Assembly (NCBI RefSeq): GCF_024105655.1
Contig: NZ_JAAAMH010000016.1
Span: forward strand, 1-64,000
Length of the DNA stretch: 64,000 bases
Reading direction: 5' to 3'
From: Aliihoeflea sp. 40Bstr573
GTDB taxonomy: Bacteria > Pseudomonadota > Alphaproteobacteria > Rhizobiales > Rhizobiaceae
The translations under genes were made by a program, and so were the position numbers. Below the pieces are notes generated by a model. That model saw only the letters and a program-made list of their open reading frames with translations, did not search any database and was not told where the DNA came from. Positions 815-11,501 of the stretch are shown here, in pieces. The first letter of the stretch is position 1. Every line of letters starts with the position of its first letter.

Positions 815-2155
815 TCATCTCTCGGTGAAGGCGCGCGCCATCGAATCCGTGATCGGCTTGGCAAGGTAGTTGAAAAACGTGCGCTCCTCGATCTGGATCA
901 TGATCTCGGCGGGCATGCCAGGCGTTGGCTGGAAGCCGCGCACGCGGGCCAGTTCGCTCGGCGGGATGTCGATGCGTGCCAGATAGACGTCCTGAGCCTT
1001 GGCCGAGGTCTGCTGCTCGGAGAGGGCATCAGCCGAGACATAGATGACATGTCCCTCGAGCACCGGCGTGGTGCGTTGGTTAAGAGCAGTCAGGCGGATC
1101 GTCGCGGGCTGGCCAACGCGCACACTGTCGATTTCAGTGCGGGGAACCTGAGCCTCGATCAGGAGCGGCACATCGTGCGGCAGGATTTCCATCACCGCCT
1201 TGCCGCTTTCGATCACGCCGCCATTGGTGTGATAGAAGGAGCGTACGATCGTGCCGGCCACCGGGGCGACGATCGAGGCGCGCTGCAGCACGTTCTCGGC
1301 CTCGCGAGACTGTTCGCGCACGACGTCTAGTTCGCCCTGTATGTCCTGAAGGCGGTCCAGCGCCTCCTCGCGAAAAGCGCTTTCGGCCTGGACGATCTCC
1401 TGACGGGTGCGCTCGACCTGTGTCGTCGCCTGATCTATTTCCGAAGCGAGGCGTCCGATCTGGCCATCGGCGTCGGCCATGGCGCGTTCCAGCGCCTTCA
1501 ATTCCGTCCCGCGCAGCAGGCCCTTTTCGAACAGGATGGCCTTGCCCTCGTGCTCTTCTCGCAAGAGGGCAAGTTGCTGCTCATAGGACGCCTTTTGCCG
1601 ATCATAGCCTTCGGCCCGGAACTCGAGCGATAGCATGTTTTGTTCCAGAATGCTGAGTTCGCCTTCGATCTTCATGCGCTGCGCATCGAAATTGAGTTTC
1701 TGGCTCTCGATGATCTCGACCACCTCGGGCTCGTGGAGATGATCGGCGAGGAACTCTGGCAAAGCCATCTTGTCCAGTCCCTGGTACTGCGAACGGAGCC
1801 GGGACGCGATTGCCTCGAGACGCGCGCGGCGCAAGAAGAGTTCGCGATCCTTGGCAAGGGCCGCAGTTTCATCGAGAAGGACGAGCGGCTGGCCGGCCTC
1901 GACCATGTCGCCTTCGAAGACCATCAGTTCCTTGATCACGCCGCCGCCGAAATGCTGGACGATCTTGTTCTGGCCCGTCGCCACAAAGCTGCCTTGCGAA
2001 ATGACGGCCGAGGCAAGCGGCGCCGTGAGCGCCCAAGCGCCGAAACCGCCGAAAGTGATGCCGAGAAGCGCAACCCCGAAGACCGTTTGCTTCCAGATCG
2101 AGCGGGGCACGTCCGCATACCACTGAATGTCATGAACCGAAGCGATATCCGACAT
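815..2155 (-). CDS. Type I secretion membrane fusion protein, HlyD family
   Basis: Periplasmic adaptor of a type I secretion system, linking the inner-membrane ABC transporter to a TolC-type outer-membrane channel. The 446-residue product has a short cytoplasmic N-terminus and one membrane segment at about residues 24-45. A lipoyl-like half follows, then a long charged helical stretch at about 150-290 typical of the HlyD coiled coil, and a C-terminal beta region ending in a family-like IQIEERTFFNYL segment. The length is normal for the family. It starts 9 bases after the stop of the ABC transporter gene, so the two are one transcription unit. No TolC-like gene is in the window. The family call is secure; the cargo is inferred only from the two genes upstream. 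Confidence 0.93.
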   Translation of the reverse strand: MSDIASVHDIQWYADVPRSIWKQTVFGVALLGITFGGFGAWALTAPLASAVISQGSFVATGQNKIVQHFGGGVIKELMVFEGDMVEAGQPLVLLDETAALAKDRELFLRRARLEAIASRLRSQYQGLDKMALPEFLADHLHEPEVVEIIESQKLNFDAQRMKIEGELSILEQNMLSLEFRAEGYDRQKASYEQQLALLREEHEGKAILFEKGLLRGTELKALERAMADADGQIGRLASEIDQATTQVERTRQEIVQAESAFREEALDRLQDIQGELDVVREQSREAENVLQRASIVAPVAGTIVRSFYHTNGGVIESGKAVMEILPHDVPLLIEAQVPRTEIDSVRVGQPATIRLTALNQRTTPVLEGHVIYVSADALSEQQTSAKAQDVYLARIDIPPSELARVRGFQPTPGMPAEIMIQIEERTFFNYLAKPITDSMARAFTER

Positions 2156-2164
2156 GGAAAGATC

Positions 2165-4216
2165 CTACTGCAACTGGTGGCCGAAAGAGCCGAGCTCTAC
2201 GGAAATGCCACGTGTCTGAAGCGCATCGAGAACGTCCTTGCTCGGGCCGAAGAGCGCGACCGTCCCGTTGACGAGCAAAAGGATCTTGTCGACGCTCTGC
2301 AACAGCGCGGGCCTCTGTGTGATCGTGATGACCGTAATCTTCTCGCGCTTGGCATGTTCGAGCGCACGTTTGAGCGCTGCGTCGCCCGCCTGGTCGAGAT
2401 TGGAATTTGGCTCGTCGAGCACCACCATGCGCGGGCCGCCGAAGAAGGCACGGGCCAAGGCGATGCGCTGTTTCTGCCCGCCCGACAGCGGCGTGCCGTC
2501 GGCGGCGACCATCGTCTCATAGCCATGCGGCAAGGACGAGATCATCTCATGAACGTCGGCCAGAACCGCCGCTTCGTAGATCTGCTCGTCCGTAGCGTCG
2601 TCGCGCATTCGAGCGATGTTGGCCTTGATCGTTCCGGGGAAGAGCTGGACGTCCTGCGGCAGATAGCCGATGTTCTCGCCGAACTGGCGCTGGTCCCAAT
2701 TGCGAAGATCCATGAGATCAAGCCGCACATTGCCCGAGGTCGGCAGGATCGAGCCCACGAGCATCTTGCCGAGCGTCGTCTTGCCTGCACCCGAGTTGCC
2801 GATAACGGCAAGCGAATCGCCTGGATTGAGCGAAAAGGTCAGTCCGTTGAGAACGACACGCTTGGTGCCTTGCGGCACGTAGAGAAGACGCTCCACATCG
2901 AGCCGCCCTTCGGGTCGCGGCAGGTTCAATCTTTCGAAATTCAGGGGCGAGGCGTTAAGCAGCGCCGTGATCCGGCCATAGGCGGATTTCGACTGCGTGT
3001 ACTGGTTCCAGCCTTCGATCGCGCCTTCGATCGGGGCCAGCGCGCGGCCGGCGATGATCGAGGCCGCGATGACCATGCCACCGGTAATCTGCCCTTCAAT
3101 CGCGAGAAATGCACCCCACCCGAGCATGCCGACCTGGGTCAGCAGGCGCGCGCCCTTGGAAAGGGCCGAAAACATTATGTTCCGGTCCTGGGCGAGCACT
3201 TGCGCGCGCAGGGATTCGGCAGTGTCCCTGCCCCAGATCCGCACCGCCTCGGGTATCATCGCAAGCGCATTGATGATCTGCGAGTTGCGCGACATGGAAT
3301 CGAGATGGAGATTGGCCTTCACCTGCGCGGTGTTTGCCTCGCCGAACGGCGTCGACGTCGCCTTCTGGTTGATAACGGTGATCACAAGCAGAAGCAGGGC
3401 CGTGCACACGACGATGAAGCCAAGATGCGGATGGATCAGGAAAACCGCGACGAGGAAGAGCGGCGCGATCGGTGCATCCAGGAACGAAATCAACGTACGC
3501 GAGACGAGGAAGGAGCGAACCTGGGCAAGGTCGCCCAACGTCTGGTATTCCTTGCCGTTTCCCGTGAGCGAGGCGCGCGCGGCGGCCGACAGGATGGGCG
3601 AGCCGAGCTGGGCCGCGACTTCGACGGCCGTCCGCATCAGGATCAAGCGGCGGATGGCGTCGAACACCGCGTGGAGGACGACCGCGCCGACGATGACGAT
3701 GGTCAGCATCGTCAGCGTGTCGAGCGAGCGGCTGGTGAGAACGCGGTCGGAAATCTGGAAGAGATAGATCGGGATCGCGAGAACCAGGACGTTGCTGGCC
3801 ACGGTGAACACCATGACGATGGCAAGGTTGCGCCGGACCACGCTGATGCCGTTCTTGAGCTGAGCGGCGAAATCGACCGGGCCGAGGCGCTTGTGGAACC
3901 CGGTTTCGGAACCGTTGGTGTTGGCCGCGACCTTGCCGGGCGCCCGAGCTGCGGCGATCGGCCCATTGTCGGCCTCGATCGTCACCATTCCGGAGGGTTT
4001 GCGCGGCGCCTCCGAGCTGCGCGGAACGGGGCCGCCGGGTGGGGTTTCTATCGTGACGGTCCCTGCGGCCTGCTGGACGTCGGCTGCGTTTTTCTCGATC
4101 CGCTCGATCGCGCGATCGACTTCGTCCAGATGCGGCATCCGGCCGGCAGTCTCTCCTGCGCGTTGGTCCTCCGCGTCCGGTCGGTTCGGACGCGCTGCGT
4201 GATCTTCCTGCGTCAT
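2165..4216 (-). CDS. Type I secretion ABC transporter (permease/ATPase, PrtD-like)
   Basis: Inner-membrane ATP-driven exporter of a type I secretion system. The 683-residue protein has a hydrophilic N-terminal extension of about 125 residues, rich in charged residues and proline. A six-helix membrane domain follows at about 125-430, then a nucleotide-binding domain with Walker A GNSGAGKTT near 472, signature LSGGQKQR near 576 and Walker B VVLDEPNSNLD near 600. No C39 peptidase domain is visible, as in PrtD-type exporters, whose substrates carry a C-terminal signal. The frame is open further upstream, but the chosen ATG at 4216 follows a GGGGGGA ribosome site and avoids overlap with the upstream gene, which ends at 4233. 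The long N-terminal extension is unusual for PrtD proteins. Confidence 0.93.
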   Translation of the reverse strand: MTQEDHAARPNRPDAEDQRAGETAGRMPHLDEVDRAIERIEKNAADVQQAAGTVTIETPPGGPVPRSSEAPRKPSGMVTIEADNGPIAAARAPGKVAANTNGSETGFHKRLGPVDFAAQLKNGISVVRRNLAIVMVFTVASNVLVLAIPIYLFQISDRVLTSRSLDTLTMLTIVIVGAVVLHAVFDAIRRLILMRTAVEVAAQLGSPILSAAARASLTGNGKEYQTLGDLAQVRSFLVSRTLISFLDAPIAPLFLVAVFLIHPHLGFIVVCTALLLLVITVINQKATSTPFGEANTAQVKANLHLDSMSRNSQIINALAMIPEAVRIWGRDTAESLRAQVLAQDRNIMFSALSKGARLLTQVGMLGWGAFLAIEGQITGGMVIAASIIAGRALAPIEGAIEGWNQYTQSKSAYGRITALLNASPLNFERLNLPRPEGRLDVERLLYVPQGTKRVVLNGLTFSLNPGDSLAVIGNSGAGKTTLGKMLVGSILPTSGNVRLDLMDLRNWDQRQFGENIGYLPQDVQLFPGTIKANIARMRDDATDEQIYEAAVLADVHEMISSLPHGYETMVAADGTPLSGGQKQRIALARAFFGGPRMVVLDEPNSNLDQAGDAALKRALEHAKREKITVITITQRPALLQSVDKILLLVNGTVALFGPSKDVLDALQTRGISVELGSFGHQLQ

Positions 4217-4232: not shown

Positions 4233-6248
4233 TCATGCGAGCATGGTTTGCAGTCCATCGGTCTGACCGGCATCCTGCGGGTGATAGCCTGGGTCGAGCG
4301 AGGAATTTGCGTCGGCATGATCGTTGGACGCGTCATCCACCAGGAAGGCGACTGCCTCGTTGACCAGCGCATTGGGATCGCGCGCGCCGAGCAGATCGGG
4401 CGATGCGGAGATGAACTCTGCCTGGATCAGCACGTCCTGCGCGTACTGCTCGCCACCGACATAGGTCTTGCCCAGCGAATCGAGGTCTGAAATGCCAGCC
4501 AGGTTGATCAGGGCATTGTCGCCCGTCTGAAGCGTCCAGCTGGCATCTTCGACCGGATCGATCGCGTTCATGGCGAGTGCGATCTGATCGCTGTCGCCCA
4601 GGATGTTGGTCTGGCCGACATAGTTGAGCTTGATCAAGTCGCCGCTGATATAGAGCACCTTGAGCGCGCCGAGATCGGCGAAGGCCGTATCGGTCAGAAC
4701 ATCGCCTGCGGCCCCATCGCCGCCAAGCGCGAGACTGTCGGCGAATGCCTTGTAGGCATCGGGAAGCGCATCGAACCGGGTCGCGCCGCCGACATTGTAG
4801 ATTGAGGCCTCATTCCAGAGCAGATTTCCGGAGGTAGAAGCCGTGCCGTTGCCTGTTGTGGTGAACCCGTCCACCGCGCCGATCAGATCATTGTCGAACA
4901 GAACGTTGAGCTGCTGGATGATGTTGGCGTCGTAGACATTGCCGCCGATGATGATCAGGTCGTAGGCGAAGGCCATTTCGAACAGCGAGATTTGATTGAC
5001 CGACAGATTGTCGCCGGCAATCACACTGGTGGTCACGCCCGACGAGGACAAGATGCCGATGTCGTTGTCGGACATGAAGACGAACTGCTGCAGCCAGTTG
5101 ACGATCATCACATCGCCGTCGATGCGCTCGACCACCCAATGCTTGGGGAAGTTCGGTTCGTCGCCGGCCTGGCGCATTTCCTCGAACGTGTCGTAGCGTG
5201 CGAAGGATGCCAGGTTGAACGCCTTCGTCGCTGCCGCATCGGGGTCAAGCCATGTCGAAACGTCTTCGGAGACTGCATCCTCGTCCATCCAGGCATTGAT
5301 CTGGATGATCGCATTCAGTTCGAAATGGCTGCCGACCACCGCAGTCACTGTCGCAGCGGTCCAAAAGCTCGTCACCGAAACGGCGTTCACCAGAGCGTTG
5401 CCGCCCGCTTCCAACGATACGGACGCCTCGAAATGGGCATTGGCTTCAATCCGCACCGACATCTGGCCGACAGGCTCCAGCTCAGCTTCCGGTTCGTCAT
5501 CCGCTTCGGGATCATAGTAATCGATCAGCGACGGCAACTCGTCGACGAGTTCGCCATTCAGATAGTCGCCTTCGAGCGTTGCCGATTTCGTCACGAACAC
5601 GCTCGCGCCTTCCGGCGCCGACGACGCGTCGAAGCTGTCGAATGCTTCGATCGCGGTCGTGATGAAGTCGACCACGGCATCGACGGAGCCCGGCAAGGCC
5701 GGATTGGCGATCGGCGAGATCGACAAGGCCTCGGATGCAAAGTCGAGGAGGGGATCGTTGTCGATTGGCTCGGCTGAAAAGACGAGACCGGAACCGCCGA
5801 CGTTGAAATAGTCGTTATCTGACAGCGAAATCTTCTGGATGAGATAGTTCGCGACGGAGCCGAGCGGCTCGATGTCAGGCAAGATGGTCTTCGTCACATA
5901 GCTCAGCGCAATCGAGGCCGGGGCGAGCTCAAGCAGCGCCGGCCACTGCGCGTATAACTTGTCCGTCAGTTCGGGCAGTTCGGGTGGGACGAATCTCACA
6001 TACGACCACGGCACAACCAGCAGAATATCGGGTGCCGGCGGCTCGTAGGCCAGCTCGGGAACGTAGCTGCCCAACTGGAAACGAGCGTCGAACTGAGCTT
6101 CGATGAAAGGCAATTTCGGGTAGTCGAGCTGGTCGGCTTTGTCGGCCAGGAACTGGTCATATGCCTCGCGCATACGCGCTTGTTCGATAAGCGTGTGAAA
6201 GTGACCAAAAAAATGCGCGATGATCTCGGTGACGCTGTCCATCGACAT
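4233..6248 (-). CDS. Acidic repeat protein encoded with the type I secretion genes (probable cargo)
   Basis: I do not recognise a named family. The 671-residue product is strongly acidic, almost lacks cysteine, and has no signal peptide or membrane helix, as expected for type I cargo. A motif of hydrophobic residues, glutamine, hydrophobic residues and an acidic D-x-D recurs at about residues 135-147, 313-325, 385-399, 442-456 and 543-556, with a weaker copy at 605-620. Examples are YLIQKISLSDNDYF and NIIQQLNVLFDNDLI. Stretches of the form GDNxLxN follow several copies, suggesting a beta-solenoid-like repeat. The RTX nonapeptide GGxGxDxUx is absent. The ATG at 6248 follows an AGGGGAG ribosome site; a second in-frame ATG lies two codons on. 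The gene lies 16 bases upstream of the ABC transporter gene. Secretion is inferred from operon position. Confidence 0.7.
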   Translation of the reverse strand: MSMDSVTEIIAHFFGHFHTLIEQARMREAYDQFLADKADQLDYPKLPFIEAQFDARFQLGSYVPELAYEPPAPDILLVVPWSYVRFVPPELPELTDKLYAQWPALLELAPASIALSYVTKTILPDIEPLGSVANYLIQKISLSDNDYFNVGGSGLVFSAEPIDNDPLLDFASEALSISPIANPALPGSVDAVVDFITTAIEAFDSFDASSAPEGASVFVTKSATLEGDYLNGELVDELPSLIDYYDPEADDEPEAELEPVGQMSVRIEANAHFEASVSLEAGGNALVNAVSVTSFWTAATVTAVVGSHFELNAIIQINAWMDEDAVSEDVSTWLDPDAAATKAFNLASFARYDTFEEMRQAGDEPNFPKHWVVERIDGDVMIVNWLQQFVFMSDNDIGILSSSGVTTSVIAGDNLSVNQISLFEMAFAYDLIIIGGNVYDANIIQQLNVLFDNDLIGAVDGFTTTGNGTASTSGNLLWNEASIYNVGGATRFDALPDAYKAFADSLALGGDGAAGDVLTDTAFADLGALKVLYISGDLIKLNYVGQTNILGDSDQIALAMNAIDPVEDASWTLQTGDNALINLAGISDLDSLGKTYVGGEQYAQDVLIQAEFISASPDLLGARDPNALVNEAVAFLVDDASNDHADANSSLDPGYHPQDAGQTDGLQTMLA

Positions 6249-6337
6249 GGCAGGCTACTCCCCTGGTCATCTTCTTGTTGACTTTGGGGCTGCGCGGCTG
6301 GAGCCGCGCAGCCCTTTCTTGCAAAAGCACTGCGAAA

Positions 6338-8101
6338 TCAGGCGTTGTCGCCGTCTTCGCCGAACGACGTGTTGGTCATCGACCCACCGACGATGGTCAT
6401 ATCAACCGCGTTCTGCTGCAGATTGGCGCCCATGACGATCGACTGGTTGAAGTTTGCAGAGTCGGCGAACGCATCCGCGGATGCGGCGCTCGAACCGGTG
6501 ACGATGCCGTCATCGCCATTGCCCGAACCCCACTGCCCGCCGGCGCCGCCGTAGCCGCCGTCACCGGTGGTGGCAATGCCGCCGCCGCCGCCGCCGCCAC
6601 CGTGGCCACCATAGGCCCAGCCGCCGGTCGTCGCGCCGGTCATGGCTTCTGCCCAAGCTCCGCTGAGCGCTGCGCCCCCGTCACCGCCAAGTGCGGATGC
6701 CGCGCCGCCGGCTGCCAAACCGCTGGTGGCATCGCCGCTGTCCGCTGCGCCGCCAACACCGTAGCCGCCGGCCCCGGTATCACCGCTGATTGCGCCGCCG
6801 AAGCCATTGCCTTCACCCGCACCGAAGCCGAGGGCGGTGGTATCGTCGATGTCGCCGCCATCGCCTGCGTCATCGGCATCACCAGCTGCGCCGGTGCGTC
6901 CGCCATTGGCATTGCCACTGTCGCCGGTCTTGTTGTTGCCGCCGTCGCCGGCGTCATCAGCGTCGCCGCCGATGTTCAGGATCGGGATCTTGGCGAACAT
7001 TGCGTCGACGCCGTCGCCGCCTTCGGAGTCACCGCCATCGCCGGCATCGTCGGCATCGCCGGTCCGGCCGGTTTCGCCGCCATCGCCTGCCTTGGCGTCA
7101 CCACCTTCGGAGTCGCCGCCATCGCCGGTACCAGCCGCCGCAAGACCTGCGCCGAGGCCGGCACCGATGCCCAGCCCGACGCCGACCGCCGTGCCGCTAT
7201 CGCCTGAACGAGCGCCTTCACCGCGTCCGCCCTCGGCCTTGCCGCTTTCGGCGTTGCCGCTGTCGGCATTGCCGCCATCGGCCTTGCCGCCGTCGCCGTC
7301 GCCGCCCTTGGCCAGGCTCAGCGCACCGACATCATCGATGTCGCCGCCTTCAGCCTTGCCGCCGAACGCCCAGCCGCCATTGCCGCCGTTCCCGCCATTG
7401 GCATCCGCGTCGTCGCCGCCATTGCCGCCGCCGCCGCCCGCATTGATGCCATCTCCGGCTTCAGCCTTGCCACCGTCCGCGTCGATGTCGAGCTTGAATT
7501 CGCCTTCGTTCTTGACGCTTGCTTCTTCGAGCTTGTCATCATCGGAAATGTAGGCGTTTTGCGAGATCACGTTGCCGACACTTGTGCCGGAGCCGGTGAA
7601 CGCACCATTCATCACATCTTCGATCTGCGTGGCGAACAGGCCGTCGACCTTTGAATCGTCGATATCTACGAAGTCGTCGTCGGTCGGCTTGTAGTGTTCC
7701 AGATCGAGATCGACATCCACGTCCACCTTCACTTCGGTGTCGTTGACGTTGATGTTCTTGTTGAAGGCTTCGTTGACATTCGTGTTGTAGTTCTCGGCAA
7801 TCGCCTTGGCCTTCGCGTCGGCGTCCGAATAGGAATCGGAATCCGACTTGGAGTCAGACTCCGACTTGGCATCGGACTCCGACTTCGCATCGGAATCTGA
7901 ATCTGAGTAGGATTCCGCATCCGACTTCGCGTCGGAATCGGACTCAGCATCCGACTTCGAGTCCGCGTCGGATTCGGATTCCGACTTTCCGTACTGGAAT
8001 TGCTTCTGCCACTGATCCTGTTCTTGATCCTGCTTTTGTTCCTGATCATCGCCGTAATGCGGCTTCTGAGGCTGTGGCTTCGTATAACGTGACTTATCCA
8101 T
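6338..8101 (-). CDS. Extreme low-complexity protein (Gln, Ser/Asp and Gly-rich blocks), first gene of secretion operon
   Basis: The 587-residue product has no recognisable family but a clear layout. Residues 1-38 are polar and Gln-rich. Residues 39-97 are almost only Ser, Asp, Ala, Lys and Glu in short SD-type repeats. Residues 98-208 are Asn/Asp-rich and contain ISQNAYISDDDK, which resembles the Q/DxD motif of the next gene. Residues 209-540 are Gly-rich with Asp, Ala and Asn (GDADDAGDGG recurs). The C-terminal 47 residues are less repetitive (NLQQNAVDMTIVGG). There is no Cys, signal peptide or transmembrane helix. The ATG at 8101 follows AGAGGAT; an upstream in-frame start has no good ribosome site. 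Likely cargo or matrix protein of the adjacent type I system, by position only. Confidence 0.65.
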   Translation of the reverse strand: MDKSRYTKPQPQKPHYGDDQEQKQDQEQDQWQKQFQYGKSESESDADSKSDAESDSDAKSDAESYSDSDSDAKSESDAKSESDSKSDSDSYSDADAKAKAIAENYNTNVNEAFNKNINVNDTEVKVDVDVDLDLEHYKPTDDDFVDIDDSKVDGLFATQIEDVMNGAFTGSGTSVGNVISQNAYISDDDKLEEASVKNEGEFKLDIDADGGKAEAGDGINAGGGGGNGGDDADANGGNGGNGGWAFGGKAEGGDIDDVGALSLAKGGDGDGGKADGGNADSGNAESGKAEGGRGEGARSGDSGTAVGVGLGIGAGLGAGLAAAGTGDGGDSEGGDAKAGDGGETGRTGDADDAGDGGDSEGGDGVDAMFAKIPILNIGGDADDAGDGGNNKTGDSGNANGGRTGAAGDADDAGDGGDIDDTTALGFGAGEGNGFGGAISGDTGAGGYGVGGAADSGDATSGLAAGGAASALGGDGGAALSGAWAEAMTGATTGGWAYGGHGGGGGGGGIATTGDGGYGGAGGQWGSGNGDDGIVTGSSAASADAFADSANFNQSIVMGANLQQNAVDMTIVGGSMTNTSFGEDGDNA

Positions 8102-8629
8102 CGTCGTATCCTCTAGAAGTGAGGACGCGTCGGCTTGACCGCCATACATCTAACTGGGGCCTTCACCTTGCGTCGGTTGACGTTTCAGACACTTTCGCGC
8201 CGAACTTGCGCGAGACGACCGCCGGTTTGGAATCTCGAAAACACGCTACCCATATCGAGACAACACGATACAAAAACCAGCGATCAACTATCGAAGTGTG
8301 CTTCCGCAAGCAGATATGGGTAAGATGACAAATCGGTCTAAATCTTCGTGATACAGACTACTGGATCGCGTGTTAATTTTCTTGGGGTTGGCTATCATGT
8401 TAAGTTCGCAACCTGTTTCGATACAGATTGTTAATCGTCTAATTCATCGAGAGTTCGGGCGTTGCCAACGAATTTGTAGGCGGCCAAACCATTATAGATC
8501 GTTCAGCCTATTCCGAATTCATGGGACGTCAGTTACGATGCGTTAACTAAGGGCTAGTCACGCCAGGCGAATGACTTAGTCCAAAGGAGGCGGGCGAACC
8601 GTCAGTGGCGTCATGAGGGGGTATCGGCT
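8102..8629. promoter_or_regulatory. Divergent regulatory region between secretion operon and luxR-type gene
   Basis: A 528-bp gap, clearly more AT-rich than its surroundings, lies between two divergently transcribed units, so it should hold both promoters. GATACA occurs three times on the plus strand (about 8269, 8350 and 8421), the last two as GATACAGA. TGTTAAT occurs at about 8371 and 8430. These may be operator elements, but no spacing or symmetry makes one of them convincing. No gene with a credible start is seen in it. Confidence 0.45.
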
Positions 8630-9400
8630 ATGTTTAGCGGGCGGGATGGAGAAGTGCGTCTGAATGCTTCCGAAAGCCGTTCGGAAGAGTTGTTTCAATC
8701 TCAACAGCCCGGTGCGCGCGAACGTGCCCTTCTTGTGGTCGCATCGGCAGGCGTCGTCTCGAACGCTTTGCTTGCCGCGATCGAGTGCGAATTCCGTTTC
8801 CTGCGCGTCCACATCGTGCCCGATCTCAACGAAGCTTGCACGTCACTCGTCGCCAACGTCGATCTTCTGCTCATCGAGCAAAGCCTGATCGGGGGCCTTG
8901 CCTATCATTATGGTGATCTGTCCGCCTACCATCCGAGAGCCATGTTCGCGGTGCTCGCCGATGTAGGCGAGCAGCAGGACGGGCGCCTTGCCGGTCTCGT
9001 CGAGCAACGAATGGTTCAGGGCGTCGTTCCAACGAACAGCAACCTCGATATTCTTCTTTCTGTCTTGCGTATTTTGCTGAGTGGCGGAGAGTATGTGCCA
9101 TCCGTCGTGTTCAGAGCGCACCTGTCTGAAAGCAGCCAGGCCGTGCGAACAAGGAGAGATGGGGCAATGAGCGAACTGACGGCACGGGAGTGGCAAATCC
9201 TCGGCCATGTTGCCAAGGGAAGCCAGAACAAGATCATCGCAAACGATCTCGGATTGTCCGAGCACACGGTCAAGATTCACATTCACAACATCATCAACAA
9301 GCTCGGCGTCCACAATCGCACCGAGGCCGCCGCGATCTATTTCGCGCGCCAGAGTGCGGGGCTGAATGGATCGGACGGGCACAGGCGCTCGCAGAACTGA
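8630..9400 (+). CDS. LuxR-family transcriptional regulator with degenerate receiver domain
   Basis: DNA-binding regulator of 256 residues. The C-terminal part from about residue 180 (SELTAREWQILGHVAKG, then LSEHTVKIHIHNIINKLG) is a textbook LuxR helix-turn-helix. The N-terminal 140 residues align with the fold of a response-regulator receiver but lack the usual residues. The acidic pair after strand 1 is missing (LLVVASAGVV), and the phospho-acceptor position at the end of strand 3 reads LLLIEQS rather than an Asp. It therefore probably does not work by classical phosphorylation. The ATG at 8630 is preceded by AGGGGG. It is divergent from the secretion operon, a natural candidate target, and is followed after 2 bases by a second gene. 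Confidence 0.88.
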   Translation: MFSGRDGEVRLNASESRSEELFQSQQPGARERALLVVASAGVVSNALLAAIECEFRFLRVHIVPDLNEACTSLVANVDLLLIEQSLIGGLAYHYGDLSAYHPRAMFAVLADVGEQQDGRLAGLVEQRMVQGVVPTNSNLDILLSVLRILLSGGEYVPSVVFRAHLSESSQAVRTRRDGAMSELTAREWQILGHVAKGSQNKIIANDLGLSEHTVKIHIHNIINKLGVHNRTEAAAIYFARQSAGLNGSDGHRRSQN

Positions 9401-9402
9401 AA

Positions 9403-9891
9403 ATGTCCTCCAATCGGTTGAAGGACATTCTTCTTCTGGTCGGCCAGCTGAACTACACTTGGACAAACACCGAGAGCCTTCTGATCCATATGATCGCCGG
9501 CCTTGCCAAGGTCGACAAGGAAACGGCGATCATCATCTTCCTGACCCTCAACACCACGCGCGCAAGGACCGACCTCGTCGAACGGTTGGCGAAGATGGCC
9601 GCCACGCCCGCCCCTTGCCGCAAGCACGTCCTGGACGTCACGCGGCGCCTATCGGCGGAGGCGCGGCTACGCAACAAGTACAATCACTGTATCTATTCGT
9701 TCGACGAGGAAGGGGCGCCGTCAATGACGCAGCTCATGCGCATCGTCGATGGCAAGGACGACGTGCGCTACGGCAAGGTCGAGATCCTCGACGATGCCGA
9801 ACTGCAGCGCATTACCGACAGCATCGCTTCGCTCGTCGCGATCAATCACGACATCTGGACGATTACCGATCGATACGGGTTTCCTACCTGA
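9403..9891 (+). CDS. Conserved-looking protein of unknown function, co-transcribed with the LuxR regulator
   Basis: A 162-residue, mostly helical soluble protein (starts SSNRLKDILLLVGQLNYTWT) with no signal peptide and no family I can name. It contains an LRNKYNH segment and a mixed C-terminal end. Its ATG lies 2 bases after the regulator's stop codon, so the two are almost certainly co-expressed and may work together. The longer open frame upstream in the same phase overlaps the regulator's helix-turn-helix and is discounted. It ends 9 bases from the convergent protease gene. Confidence 0.72.
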   Translation: MSSNRLKDILLLVGQLNYTWTNTESLLIHMIAGLAKVDKETAIIIFLTLNTTRARTDLVERLAKMAATPAPCRKHVLDVTRRLSAEARLRNKYNHCIYSFDEEGAPSMTQLMRIVDGKDDVRYGKVEILDDAELQRITDSIASLVAINHDIWTITDRYGFPT

Positions 9892-9900
9892 GCAAGAGGG

Positions 9901-10512
9901 TCATGCGCCAGCGGCGACGATCCGCTCCCACTTGCCATGCGCGTGCTGCGACTGGCGGGCGAAGAAATTATAACGGACCTTCGTCCAGTCGCGCAATGAG
10001 TTGGTGCGATTGTCGAGGATGATGTCGCCGCGGTCGGTGCTTGCCGTCAATACGACATGCCCTTCCCCGCCCACCGTGACGACGGTGAGCAGCAATGTGG
10101 ATGCCGGCCAGCCGCGCTTCATGAGTTCCTTTTTCTTCAGAATCGCGAAATCTTCGCAGTCGCCTGCCGAGCGCGGCACTCCCCACACATCCTCCTCGCC
10201 ATGCATCTCCAGATCGCTGACTTCGCGGATCTGTCGGTTCACGAGGAGATTGACTTCCTGCAGTTCGCTCTGGCGCGCCTTTGTCATCGTCATCTTGCGC
10301 ACCGGACCGGTCGAGGCGCAAAGGTCGGCCCGCTGCGCACAGAACGCGTAAAAGGCGGGCGGGGCAAACGCAGGGCCCGACGCAGCCATCAATTGGGGCT
10401 CGGCCGCAGAAGCGGCAGGCGCGATGGCCGCAGTGGAGGAGATCGAGGCCGTCGTTTGTGCGCAAGATGCGGCGCAAACCGCCATCAACGTTGCGGCAAA
10501 CACTTTCAGCAT
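9901..10512 (-). CDS. Bacterial transglutaminase-like cysteine protease (BTLCP, LapG-type)
   Basis: Periplasmic cysteine protease of the family that includes LapG. In other bacteria LapG trims large type I secreted adhesins to release them. The 203-residue product starts with an export signal ending in AASC (residues 14-17), so it may be a lipoprotein. The catalytic residues are visible as C119 in GDCEDFAILKKKEL, H152 in GEGHVVLTAS and D167 in IILDNRTN. The C-H-D spacing is close to that of LapG. No LapD or LapA gene is seen. Many alphaproteobacteria have stand-alone BTLCPs of unknown substrate, so a role in processing the nearby secreted proteins is inference. It is transcribed away from the Gly-rich gene across a shared upstream region. 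Confidence 0.88.
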   Translation of the reverse strand: MLKVFAATLMAVCAASCAQTTASISSTAAIAPAASAAEPQLMAASGPAFAPPAFYAFCAQRADLCASTGPVRKMTMTKARQSELQEVNLLVNRQIREVSDLEMHGEEDVWGVPRSAGDCEDFAILKKKELMKRGWPASTLLLTVVTVGGEGHVVLTASTDRGDIILDNRTNSLRDWTKVRYNFFARQSQHAHGKWERIVAAGA

Positions 10513-10673: not shown

Positions 10674-11501
10674 ATGTTGCGTAAAAAAACACTTGCACTT
10701 ACTCAAACAATGGCAGTCGGCGCTGCCGTTTGGATCGGCGGTTCTGCTGCGGTCCAAGCCCAAGAGCCTCGCCCGATTCTGTCCGCGGCTACGTGTCAGC
10801 CGCTAACGGAGGCAAACTACGTATTGTGCTGTATCGCTGCAAATCGCGATTCGTTACTGACGCGTGCTCAGCGCGAGCAGTGCCCTCCGCTCACGACAGC
10901 TCTCATCCGATCGGTGATGAGCAATGAAGGTTCGGGCGTCGCCATCGGCTTCGCACCCGGCGAGGGCAGTGGCGGTTCGGGCTCCGGTGGCGCCGGGGGC
11001 GGAAGCGGTTCTGGCGGTGACGGCGGCGGCTCTGGCGGCAGCGGCACGGGCGGCAGCGGCGGCACGGGTGGTGGTGACTCCGGCGGCGGCTCTGGCGGCG
11101 GTGGAGCTGGCGGTGGCGGCGGCACGGGTGGTGGCGACTCCGGCGGCGGCTCTGGCGGCAGCGGCGCGGGCGGCAGCGGCGGCACGGGTGGTGGTGACTC
11201 CGGCGGCGGCTCTGGCGGCAGCGGCGCGGGCGGCAGCGGCGGCACGGGTGGTGGTGACTCCGGCGGCGGCTCTGGCGGCGGTGGAGCTGGCGGTGGCGGC
11301 GGCACGGGTGGCGGCGACAGCGGCGGCGGCGCTGGCGGCAGCGGCGGCACGGGTGGCGGCGACAGCGGCGGCGGCGCTGGCGGCAGCGGCGGCACGGGTG
11401 GCAGCGACAGCGGCGGCGGCTCTGGCGGCGCTGGAGCCGGCGGTGGCGGTGGAACTGGTGGCGGCGGAGGAGCTGGCGGCGCTGGTGGCGGCGGCGGCTA
11501 A
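10674..11501 (+). CDS. Exported Gly/Ser-rich repeat protein
   Basis: The 275-residue product begins with a signal peptide (MLRKKTLALTQTMAVGAAVW, cleavage likely after VQAQ). A head of about 65 residues follows with four cysteines (C41, C52, C53, C69). The rest, from about residue 98, is almost entirely Gly with Ser, Thr, Asp and Ala in tandem units such as GGSGGTGGGDSGGGSGG. The head has no family I recognise. The tail should be flexible or form a Gly-rich surface structure, as in eukaryotic-like cell-wall glycine-rich proteins. The start codon follows GGGAGGGGG. A CtrA-type box lies upstream, and a hairpin terminator follows the stop by 25 bases. Confidence 0.75.
   Translation: MLRKKTLALTQTMAVGAAVWIGGSAAVQAQEPRPILSAATCQPLTEANYVLCCIAANRDSLLTRAQREQCPPLTTALIRSVMSNEGSGVAIGFAPGEGSGGSGSGGAGGGSGSGGDGGGSGGSGTGGSGGTGGGDSGGGSGGGGAGGGGGTGGGDSGGGSGGSGAGGSGGTGGGDSGGGSGGSGAGGSGGTGGGDSGGGSGGGGAGGGGGTGGGDSGGGAGGSGGTGGGDSGGGAGGSGGTGGSDSGGGSGGAGAGGGGGTGGGGGAGGAGGGGG
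11041..11430 (+). repeat. In-frame tandem repeat, five 60-bp units then two 45-bp units
   Basis: Five consecutive 60-bp units start at 11041, 11101, 11161, 11221 and 11281. The units at 11161 and 11221 differ at a single base, and the others alternate between two sequence variants. From 11341 the period drops to 45 bp (11341-11385 and 11386-11430), as if a 15-bp block had been lost. All units keep frame. Near-identity at synonymous positions suggests recent duplication or gene conversion. Confidence 0.9.

Follow-up and report, generated by a model that had tools for sequence, protein, structure and literature searches.

Curli (CsgA/CsgB, PF07012) are exported via CsgG and Fap (FapC) via FapF, and transporters of the PrtD type export proteins with uncleaved C-terminal signals. 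Other described systems make use of type I secretion systems (T1SSs). In the part of its description available to us, BapA of Paracoccus denitrificans is a low-complexity protein of 2,211 amino acids with 891 Asp-Ala repeats, which is needed for calcium-stimulated biofilm and is encoded just upstream of its transporter genes in a bap locus that includes an outer-membrane gene; a TXSScan survey of P. denitrificans named a single T1SS, bapBCD (PMC5588039), and BapA is also treated in the accessible part of PMC13235738. The Cdz system of Caulobacter crescentus, involved in contact-dependent killing, comprises a T1SS without a linked TolC and two Gly-rich surface proteins, one of which forms large aggregates. 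According to the available portion of that report, CdzC (86 aa) and CdzD (84 aa) carry leaders, a membrane immunity protein belongs to the system, CdzI is predicted with three membrane segments, and related proteins are defined as glycine-zipper proteins of 60-151 aa with a leader ending in G[G/A/S] (PMC5380434). Finally, the Rap/Ply proteins of Rhizobium, substrates of PrsDE, are matrix proteins exported by a rhizobial T1SS, and a cadherin-like domain is common to the Rap proteins, as stated in the accessible part of PMC9298526.

Here, we analyzed a locus within a window of 64,000 nucleotides from Aliihoeflea sp. 40Bstr573 (contig NZ_JAAAMH010000016.1, positions 1 to 64,000), which resembles each of these systems in part. 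As far as our searches go, it constitutes a conserved secretion unit that is undescribed, and a literature search returned no title or abstract opening concerning it.

Results

P0001 heads a type I secretion operon

The low-complexity protein P0001 is encoded by the first of four genes, followed by those for P0004, a PrtD-type ABC transporter and an HlyD-type adaptor (Table 1), which confirms the operon position proposed in an initial annotation made from the sequence alone. The ABC and HlyD pair exceeds the curated cut-offs for a T1SS of the PrtD type. In each of the 17 loci fetched, P0004, ABC and HlyD are collinear and P0001 immediately precedes P0004 (15 by phmmer, 2 by reading). P0004 starts 89 bases downstream of P0001, and for the ABC transporter the start at 4216, past the P0004 stop, is likelier than the opening of its reading frame at 4372. 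The TolC channel would be supplied by another part of the genome, the single TIGR01844 match above cut-off lying on contig C1 and not on C8.

Table 1. Features of the locus and their positions in the window.
Feature	Position	Strand	Description
HlyD-type membrane fusion protein	815..2155	minus	TIGR01843 373 bits, cut-off 209
PrtD-type type I secretion ABC transporter	2165..4216	minus	TIGR01842 709 bits, cut-off 510
P0004	4233..6248	minus	671-aa beta-repeat protein, not assigned to any known family; consistently adjoins P0001
P0001	6338..8101	minus	587-aa low-complexity protein; conserved mid motif (~140-216) and C-terminal tail (536-587)
Intergenic region of the two divergent units	8102..8629		528 bases, 50% GC, genus-wide conserved blocks
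Leader element	8132..8166	minus	Conserved; loop anchor 49 nt 5' of the P0001 ATG; covarying hairpin in relatives, its loop like UGAGAUGAA
LuxR/GerE regulator	8630..9400	plus	Divergent from P0001
orf9403	9403..9891	plus	162 aa; conserved partner; R-N-x3-H (HEPN-like) motif; no membrane segment

The LuxR/GerE regulator, for which the best NCBIfam model is CsgD at 59.6 bits, far under its cut-off of 250, lies near P0004 in 13 of the 17 fetched loci. A promoter and terminator scan gave counts equal to those in shuffles. Further along, a Gly-rich protein with a signal peptide apparent by eye is encoded at 10674-11501 (plus strand); it lies near the locus in 6 of the 17 loci, with a 697-aa version in L041, and is adjoined by a gene for a BTLCP (PF06035)/LapG-type peptidase (9901-10512, minus strand). 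Processing by this peptidase was considered and rejected, its gene being linked in just 5 of the 17 loci.

The unit recurs across Alphaproteobacteria and on plasmids

P0001 matches were obtained in 17 of the 101 genomes searched, own genome included, with P0004 beside P0001 in each of them. P0004 matches were found in 18 genomes, which contain all 17 with P0001, and in the eighteenth (L056) a P0001-like gene was recognised by reading. Searching the order with the P0004 profile identified 35 of 397 sampled genomes, belonging to 21 of 142 genera. Among 29 further loci from this order-wide search, from which the five lowest-scoring genomes were left out and of which 6 represent genomes already among the 17, the P0001 tail motif stands just upstream of P0004 in 28, and the 29th locus begins at a contig edge. 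Among the named relatives, P0004 identity is 85% for Aliihoeflea sp. 2WW and 64% for A. aestuarii.

In addition, P0004 matches 32 plasmid records from Ensifer, Sinorhizobium, Sulfitobacter, Paracoccus, Shinella and others, with the same gene order on records of Sulfitobacter, Paracoccus and Sinorhizobium; in P. denitrificans HAMBI_2443 the locus lies on the 1.7-Mb plasmid unnamed1. Hosts of P0004 include marine and soil Alphaproteobacteria, and the same order is carried by plasmids of Rhodobacterales.

P0001 is under selection and keeps two short conserved parts

On the minus strand, the P0001 open reading frame extends 5' to an in-frame ATG at 8149, giving 603 aa; the ATG at 8101 is preferred as start, since a GAGGA ribosome-binding site lies immediately 5' of it. 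Read on the plus strand, the stretch is interrupted by stops. The stacked Gln, Ser/Asp, Asn/Asp and Gly blocks and the tail are present as initially described: the N-terminus forms a Gln-rich head, a 59-residue window from residue 39 consists to 97% of S/D/A/E/K (Ser 36%, Asp 25%), an Asn/Asp stretch (~98-140) precedes the Gly-rich part (~205 to 545), and a non-repetitive tail follows. Acidic residues exceed basic ones by 81, and Cys is absent from P0001, as initially noted, and from 16 of 19 members of its homologue set.

The Gln, Ser/Asp and Asn blocks constitute a single tract of alternating residues (residues 16-140), as identity at distance 2 within it amounts to 0.38 versus 0.10 in shuffles (z 10.3). 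Similar alternation ahead of the mid motif (QxQx, NxNx, SxSx) is found among the P0001 homologues, with z >9 in 12 and >3 in 15 of 19, and no signal in 4. Period-3 order in the Gly-rich part is not claimed: z reached 1.9 for P0001 of the window, ranged over 0.7-5.9 among 12 homologues and was -2.2 for L056 (5 homologues left out). P0001 had no match in Pfam at E 1, in PHROGs at E 0.1 or, using its profile, in a PDB sequence search at E 1; in NCBIfam, four MSCRAMM models scored 31-34 bits on the Ser/Asp part, far under their cut-offs of 999-2500, and TraG scored 13.6 bits, far under its cut-off of 600. The predicted model of P0001 is poor (pLDDT 37.8).

P0001 is a real gene under selection. As determined by Nei-Gojobori codon counts against three congeners, its dN/dS is 0.28, 0.38 and 0.47, and these values, together with P0001 matches in 17 of the 101 genomes, own genome included, run counter to the outcome that the initial annotation had named as refuting, namely no frame-keeping homologues or no selection. 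The mid motif (0.16-0.28) and the tail (0.16, 0.19 and 0.45) are mostly under tighter constraint than the Gly-rich part (0.37-0.57). For residues 39-140, the Ser/Asp block region, dN/dS is 0.15 against the sole relative of like composition and 0.77 against L040, where the block is different (29% identity); the comparison with L042 gave no defined value.

In the alignment of 19 homologues, Q181, G558 and G572 are the invariant columns, and all but one of the 14 nearly invariant columns lie inside the mid motif or the tail. The order of blocks, which had been expected to be conserved, is not strict: the Ser/Asp block is present in 2 of 19 homologues, many others having Asn/Gly/Leu alternation in its place, and the Gln-rich head and a Gly-rich run of at least 90 aa each occur in 13 of 19. 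P0001 of Sinorhizobium meliloti Ak57 (L093:6355-6906) comprises 183 aa with mid motif and tail and is devoid of the Gln- or Gly-rich blocks. The variable blocks and this short form indicate that the low-complexity part is optional, and that the mid motif and tail are kept. The initial annotation had singled out the right gene and neighbourhood and laid its weight on the variable blocks, whereas what is conserved is the mid motif and the tail, the latter being present in the homologues as had been anticipated.

The 183-aa Ak57 protein is annotated as hypothetical, and a leader hairpin lies 5' of its gene. Tandem P0001 paralogues occur at L054:6378-8398 (the L054 genome being the L070 genome), L070-L072 and L081, and look as if they were a major and a minor subunit. 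On plasmid unnamed3 of Sulfitobacter sp. W074 (L089:13116-14789), the P0001 frame diverges from its relatives near the C-terminus, reflecting either a real change or a sequencing error.

P0004 is a predicted beta-repeat protein with a motif in common with P0001

The dN/dS of P0004 is 0.12, 0.16 and 0.21 against the same three congeners. It has no Pfam match at E 1, a single noise-level match each in NCBIfam and PHROGs (E 0.19 and 0.052), and no match at E 1 in a PDB sequence search with its profile. In the alignment (n=18), G(x9)Q(x5)D-x-D alternates with G-x-N-x3-N-x-A-x-I in somewhat variable form, motifs which can also be written G...N-x-I-x-Q...D-x-D and G-x-N...N-x-A-x-I, and the conserved Gln positions between 316 and 609 are 58-100 residues apart.

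The AlphaFold2 model (mean pLDDT 66.9, pTM 0.68; pLDDT of at least 70 for 390 of 671 residues) shows beta-strand repeats at ~130-615, and P0004 is thus predicted to form stacked beta-strands. Conservation alternates between strand faces (permutation p <0.05) in 5 of the 11 predicted strands and not in the other 6. Neither Foldseek, searched with this model, nor the viral fold library gave a match at E 0.001; among the 20 sub-threshold Foldseek rows, FapC ranked second and fourth (E 1.1 and 2.1). In the VIA comparison, P0004 matched the CsgA fibril with Z 3.6 (rmsd 3.6, 84 aligned) and FapC with Z 2.3, tied with the unrelated SufBCD (2.3). Repeat proteins commonly reach Z values of this size by chance, and the modelled likeness to CsgA and FapC is taken as a hint only. 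P0004 was rejected as a curlin, a profile of 32 curlin units scoring within shuffled controls in addition to the missing Pfam match at E 1. Separate curlin-repeat PF07012 matches above cut-off are present on contigs C2 and C66 of the same genome (L096-L103), including a 1,215-residue open frame with many curlin-like repeats; since the host has separate curlin genes, the P0001/P0004 system would be additional to them and not a replacement.

Profile comparison of the hhalign type relates the conserved parts of P0001 to P0004. The mid motif scored 27.2 against P0004 (maximum of 60 column shuffles 18.5) and 24.2 against the P0004 repeat region alone (shuffle maximum 18.3), and the tail scored 28.6 against the P0004 profile (maximum of 60 column shuffles 17.5), with hhalign probabilities for the common motif that are low (10-47%). 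Between the mid motif and the tail themselves there was no match (score 9.2; median of shuffles 9.7). The scores against P0004 suggest that the Gly-rich part of P0001 is flanked by two half-repeats like those of P0004, which would allow P0001 to join a P0004 stack.

The P0001 leader forms a covarying hairpin in relatives

The four leaders from the genus contain a near-identical 35-base stretch with a loop anchor 46-49 nt 5' of the start codon. In other genera, a hairpin with a changing stem and a loop like UGAGAUGAA is found at the same site (for example L045:6506-6540, L052:6517-6551 and L093:6293-6325). For 7 of 15 leaders, a biased choice as they were selected for pairing without offset, 95% of cells pair, with compensatory changes in all six pairs, and the covariation score of 0.84 compares with 0.35 (sd 0.08) for shuffled controls. 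Slid versions reach no more than 52% pairing.

A model built from these seven seeds was run against 53 sources. Its 22 hits comprise the 7 seeds themselves along with 2 copies of seed loci, 6 other leaders, a second copy in L045 and 6 off-site hits, the last of which look like chance. Of the six further leaders (L089, L067, L090, L093, L043 and L047; E 0.02-0.64), those of L043, L047 and L090 had been spotted by eye beforehand, L089 and L090 are sisters, and L067 belongs to the genus of seed L051. The second copy, at L045:5470-5504, has no P0001 gene to be seen behind it and is perhaps a remnant.

The window's own leader is absent from the 22 hits; in the own genome the three hits of the model are weak (best E 0.126) and none of them falls on the P0001 locus. 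The window leader has 4 contiguous pairs beside a mismatch, which are not significant alone (helix test, p 0.29). The helix test covered the 18 of 21 leaders with a loop anchor, which three lack, and gave a combined p of 5e-5 over 14 representatives, with 4 of 14 at p <0.05 alone; the anchor comes from a list derived from these same leaders. Folding energy of the whole leader is mostly ordinary, with z <=-2 in 2 of 8 and in 4 of 21, and the P0001 Shine-Dalgarno region often lies opposite a CCTC segment. Rfam returned two mir-598 matches for window positions 6000-9000, both under the gathering score, and no family. Taken together, covariation supports the leader hairpin in relatives, and in the window it is unproven.

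orf9403 accompanies P0004

orf9403 lies near the locus in 16 of the 17 fetched loci, and in the seventeenth genome it stands just beyond the fetched stretch. It matched in 36 of 397 genomes, which, going by their handles, seem to be the set sampled in the P0004 search. Comparing the lists by hand, 32 of the 39 sampled genomes having either gene have both; P0004 alone occurs in G167, G326 and G348 (weak partial matches) and orf9403 alone in G058 and G397 (weak) and in G353 and G409 (strong). Both genes lie no more than 8 kb apart on one contig in 31 of these 32 (G161 being counted by its N-terminal P0004 fragment), and on different contigs in G307.

Mean column identity in the orf9403 alignment (n=16) is 57%. 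The RNase motif of HEPN proteins is R-x4-6-H. R90-N-x3-H95 of orf9403 has this form, the pattern being R[NH]x3H in 21 of 22 sequences, with KNQYNH in the remaining one; a motif this short carries little weight by itself. Nothing rose above noise in Pfam for 16 members, and the best PDB sequence match has E 0.24. Maximal hydropathy over 19 residues is at most 1.67 in 22 of 22 homologues, which indicates the lack of a membrane segment.

Discussion

Gene order, conservation, selection, the predicted fold of P0004 and the motif common to P0001 and P0004 are results of computation, and the model proposed here adds fibre formation, co-assembly and regulation as hypotheses. P0001 and P0004 would be two substrates of the T1SS encoded alongside: the C-terminal tails of both are conserved in the alignments and neither has a leader, in agreement with what is known of PrtD-type export, from which we infer that both are secreted by means of C-terminal signals. 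The suggestion that P0001 is a secreted scaffold or gel accordingly needs to be divided, in that the protein is scaffold-like, probably secreted and conserved in its C-terminal tail, but not the sole candidate substrate, as P0004 adjoins it in all 17 genomes. Outside the cell, P0004 would form an ordered stack of beta-strands, several of them with conserved Asn/Gln-bearing faces, and P0001, disordered alone, may join this stack via its mid and tail half-repeats. The Gln/Asn/Ser and Gly-rich stretches would then make up the bulk of a fibrous, hydrated matrix, as an acidic coat or filler. The divergent LuxR regulator and orf9403 might control the system, with the leader of the P0001 mRNA as a possible point of post-transcriptional control. 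We give even chances to the overall reading, in which a T1SS exports a two-protein, beta-rich fibre or matrix, with its secretion deduced from the gene context and its assembly hypothetical.

If this reading holds, family searches miss a widespread matrix or fibre system, in which low-complexity sequence is free to vary (Ser/Asp, Asn/Gly/Leu or none) and two short beta half-repeats are kept; the P0001 variants would then provide a natural series for the role of low-complexity sequence in a matrix. P0001, P0004 and orf9403 belong to no curated family among those searched, yet they travel together, and orf9403 and the leader hairpin offer a testable regulatory link. Confirmation would establish a new kind of bacterial matrix-building system.

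That the pair instead binds polysaccharide, as an adhesin or matrix organiser comparable to the Rap proteins of rhizobia and secreted in soluble or surface-bound form in place of building a fibre, appears unlikely to us, although it accounts for the T1SS operon as well, and the Rap proteins are themselves T1SS matrix proteins in the accessible part of PMC9298526. Both Sulfitobacter copies read adjoin genes for a glycosyltransferase, galE and UDP-glucuronate decarboxylase, which would suit both such an adhesin and the two-protein fibre or matrix, whereas no polysaccharide synthesis genes were seen near the copies of P. ferrooxidans, where lipid A genes lie ~9 kb away, and S. meliloti. The S. 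chiapasense and P. denitrificans records are unannotated around their copies. Moreover, Pfam and NCBIfam detect no cadherin-like or carbohydrate-binding family in P0001 or P0004.

Returning to the two-protein fibre or matrix, a more far-reaching version, which we regard as improbable, would make it an independent route to functional amyloid: a two-subunit beta-solenoid fibre exported by a T1SS under a dedicated LuxR switch, with orf9403 as a HEPN-type RNase acting on the leader hairpin of the major subunit, so that fibre production would be coupled to RNA-level control.

The likeness to calcium-binding biomineral-type or phase-separating scaffolds, on which the initial annotation had laid stress and in which the Ser/Asp block would be the working part, is more doubtful still, and we see no support for calcium binding or biomineralization. 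The acidic excess and the 97% S/D/A/E/K block favor such a role, as does the Asp-Ala-rich BapA with its part in calcium-stimulated biofilm (PMC5588039, as far as its accessible part goes), and in several homologues isolated GGxGxD motifs are more numerous than in shuffles (for example 7 vs 0.9 in L050). However, the Ser/Asp block is confined to two homologues, often giving way to Asn/Gly/Leu alternation elsewhere, none of the 19 homologues has tandem RTX nonapeptides (GGxGxDxxx), P0001 of the window has 2 single motifs vs 1.2 in shuffles, and neither RTX nor any other Pfam family was matched. Least probable of all is a cluster for contact-dependent killing akin to Cdz, with which the locus has in common a T1SS, no linked TolC and a pair of proteins, one of them Gly-rich, since proteins of 587 and 671 aa, a PrtD-type transporter and orf9403, the sole neighbour screened and one without any membrane segment in 22 of 22 homologues, stand against the sizes, leaders and membrane immunity protein described in the available part of PMC5380434, which rule out an identity with Cdz.

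Compared feature by feature with the known systems, the locus shows the tested defining features of none. With BapA/BapBCD it has in common the T1SS and a low-complexity dipeptide-repeat protein encoded shortly ahead of the transporter genes, and it differs in the length and Asp-Ala repeats of that protein and in the outer-membrane gene of the bap locus, so that P0001 is not BapA as portrayed in the accessible part of PMC5588039. Cdz is similar in its two surface proteins, in aggregation and in the lack of a linked TolC, and different in protein size, leader peptides and immunity protein; Rap/Ply proteins are alike as matrix proteins of a rhizobial T1SS, and the cadherin-like domain common to the Rap proteins sets these apart. 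Curli and Fap resemble the locus in having two proteins with a common strand motif and Asn/Gln-bearing strands, in a LuxR regulator whose best model, under its cut-off, is CsgD, and in the structural matches of P0004, which are few and weak and include CsgA and FapC. They differ in that the locus has type I secretion genes in place of CsgG or FapF, and in the spacing of conserved Gln in P0004, which compares with about 22 positions in curli. Overall, it is the export route that links the locus to BapA, Cdz and Rap, and a kinship with curli and Fap may lie in its material.
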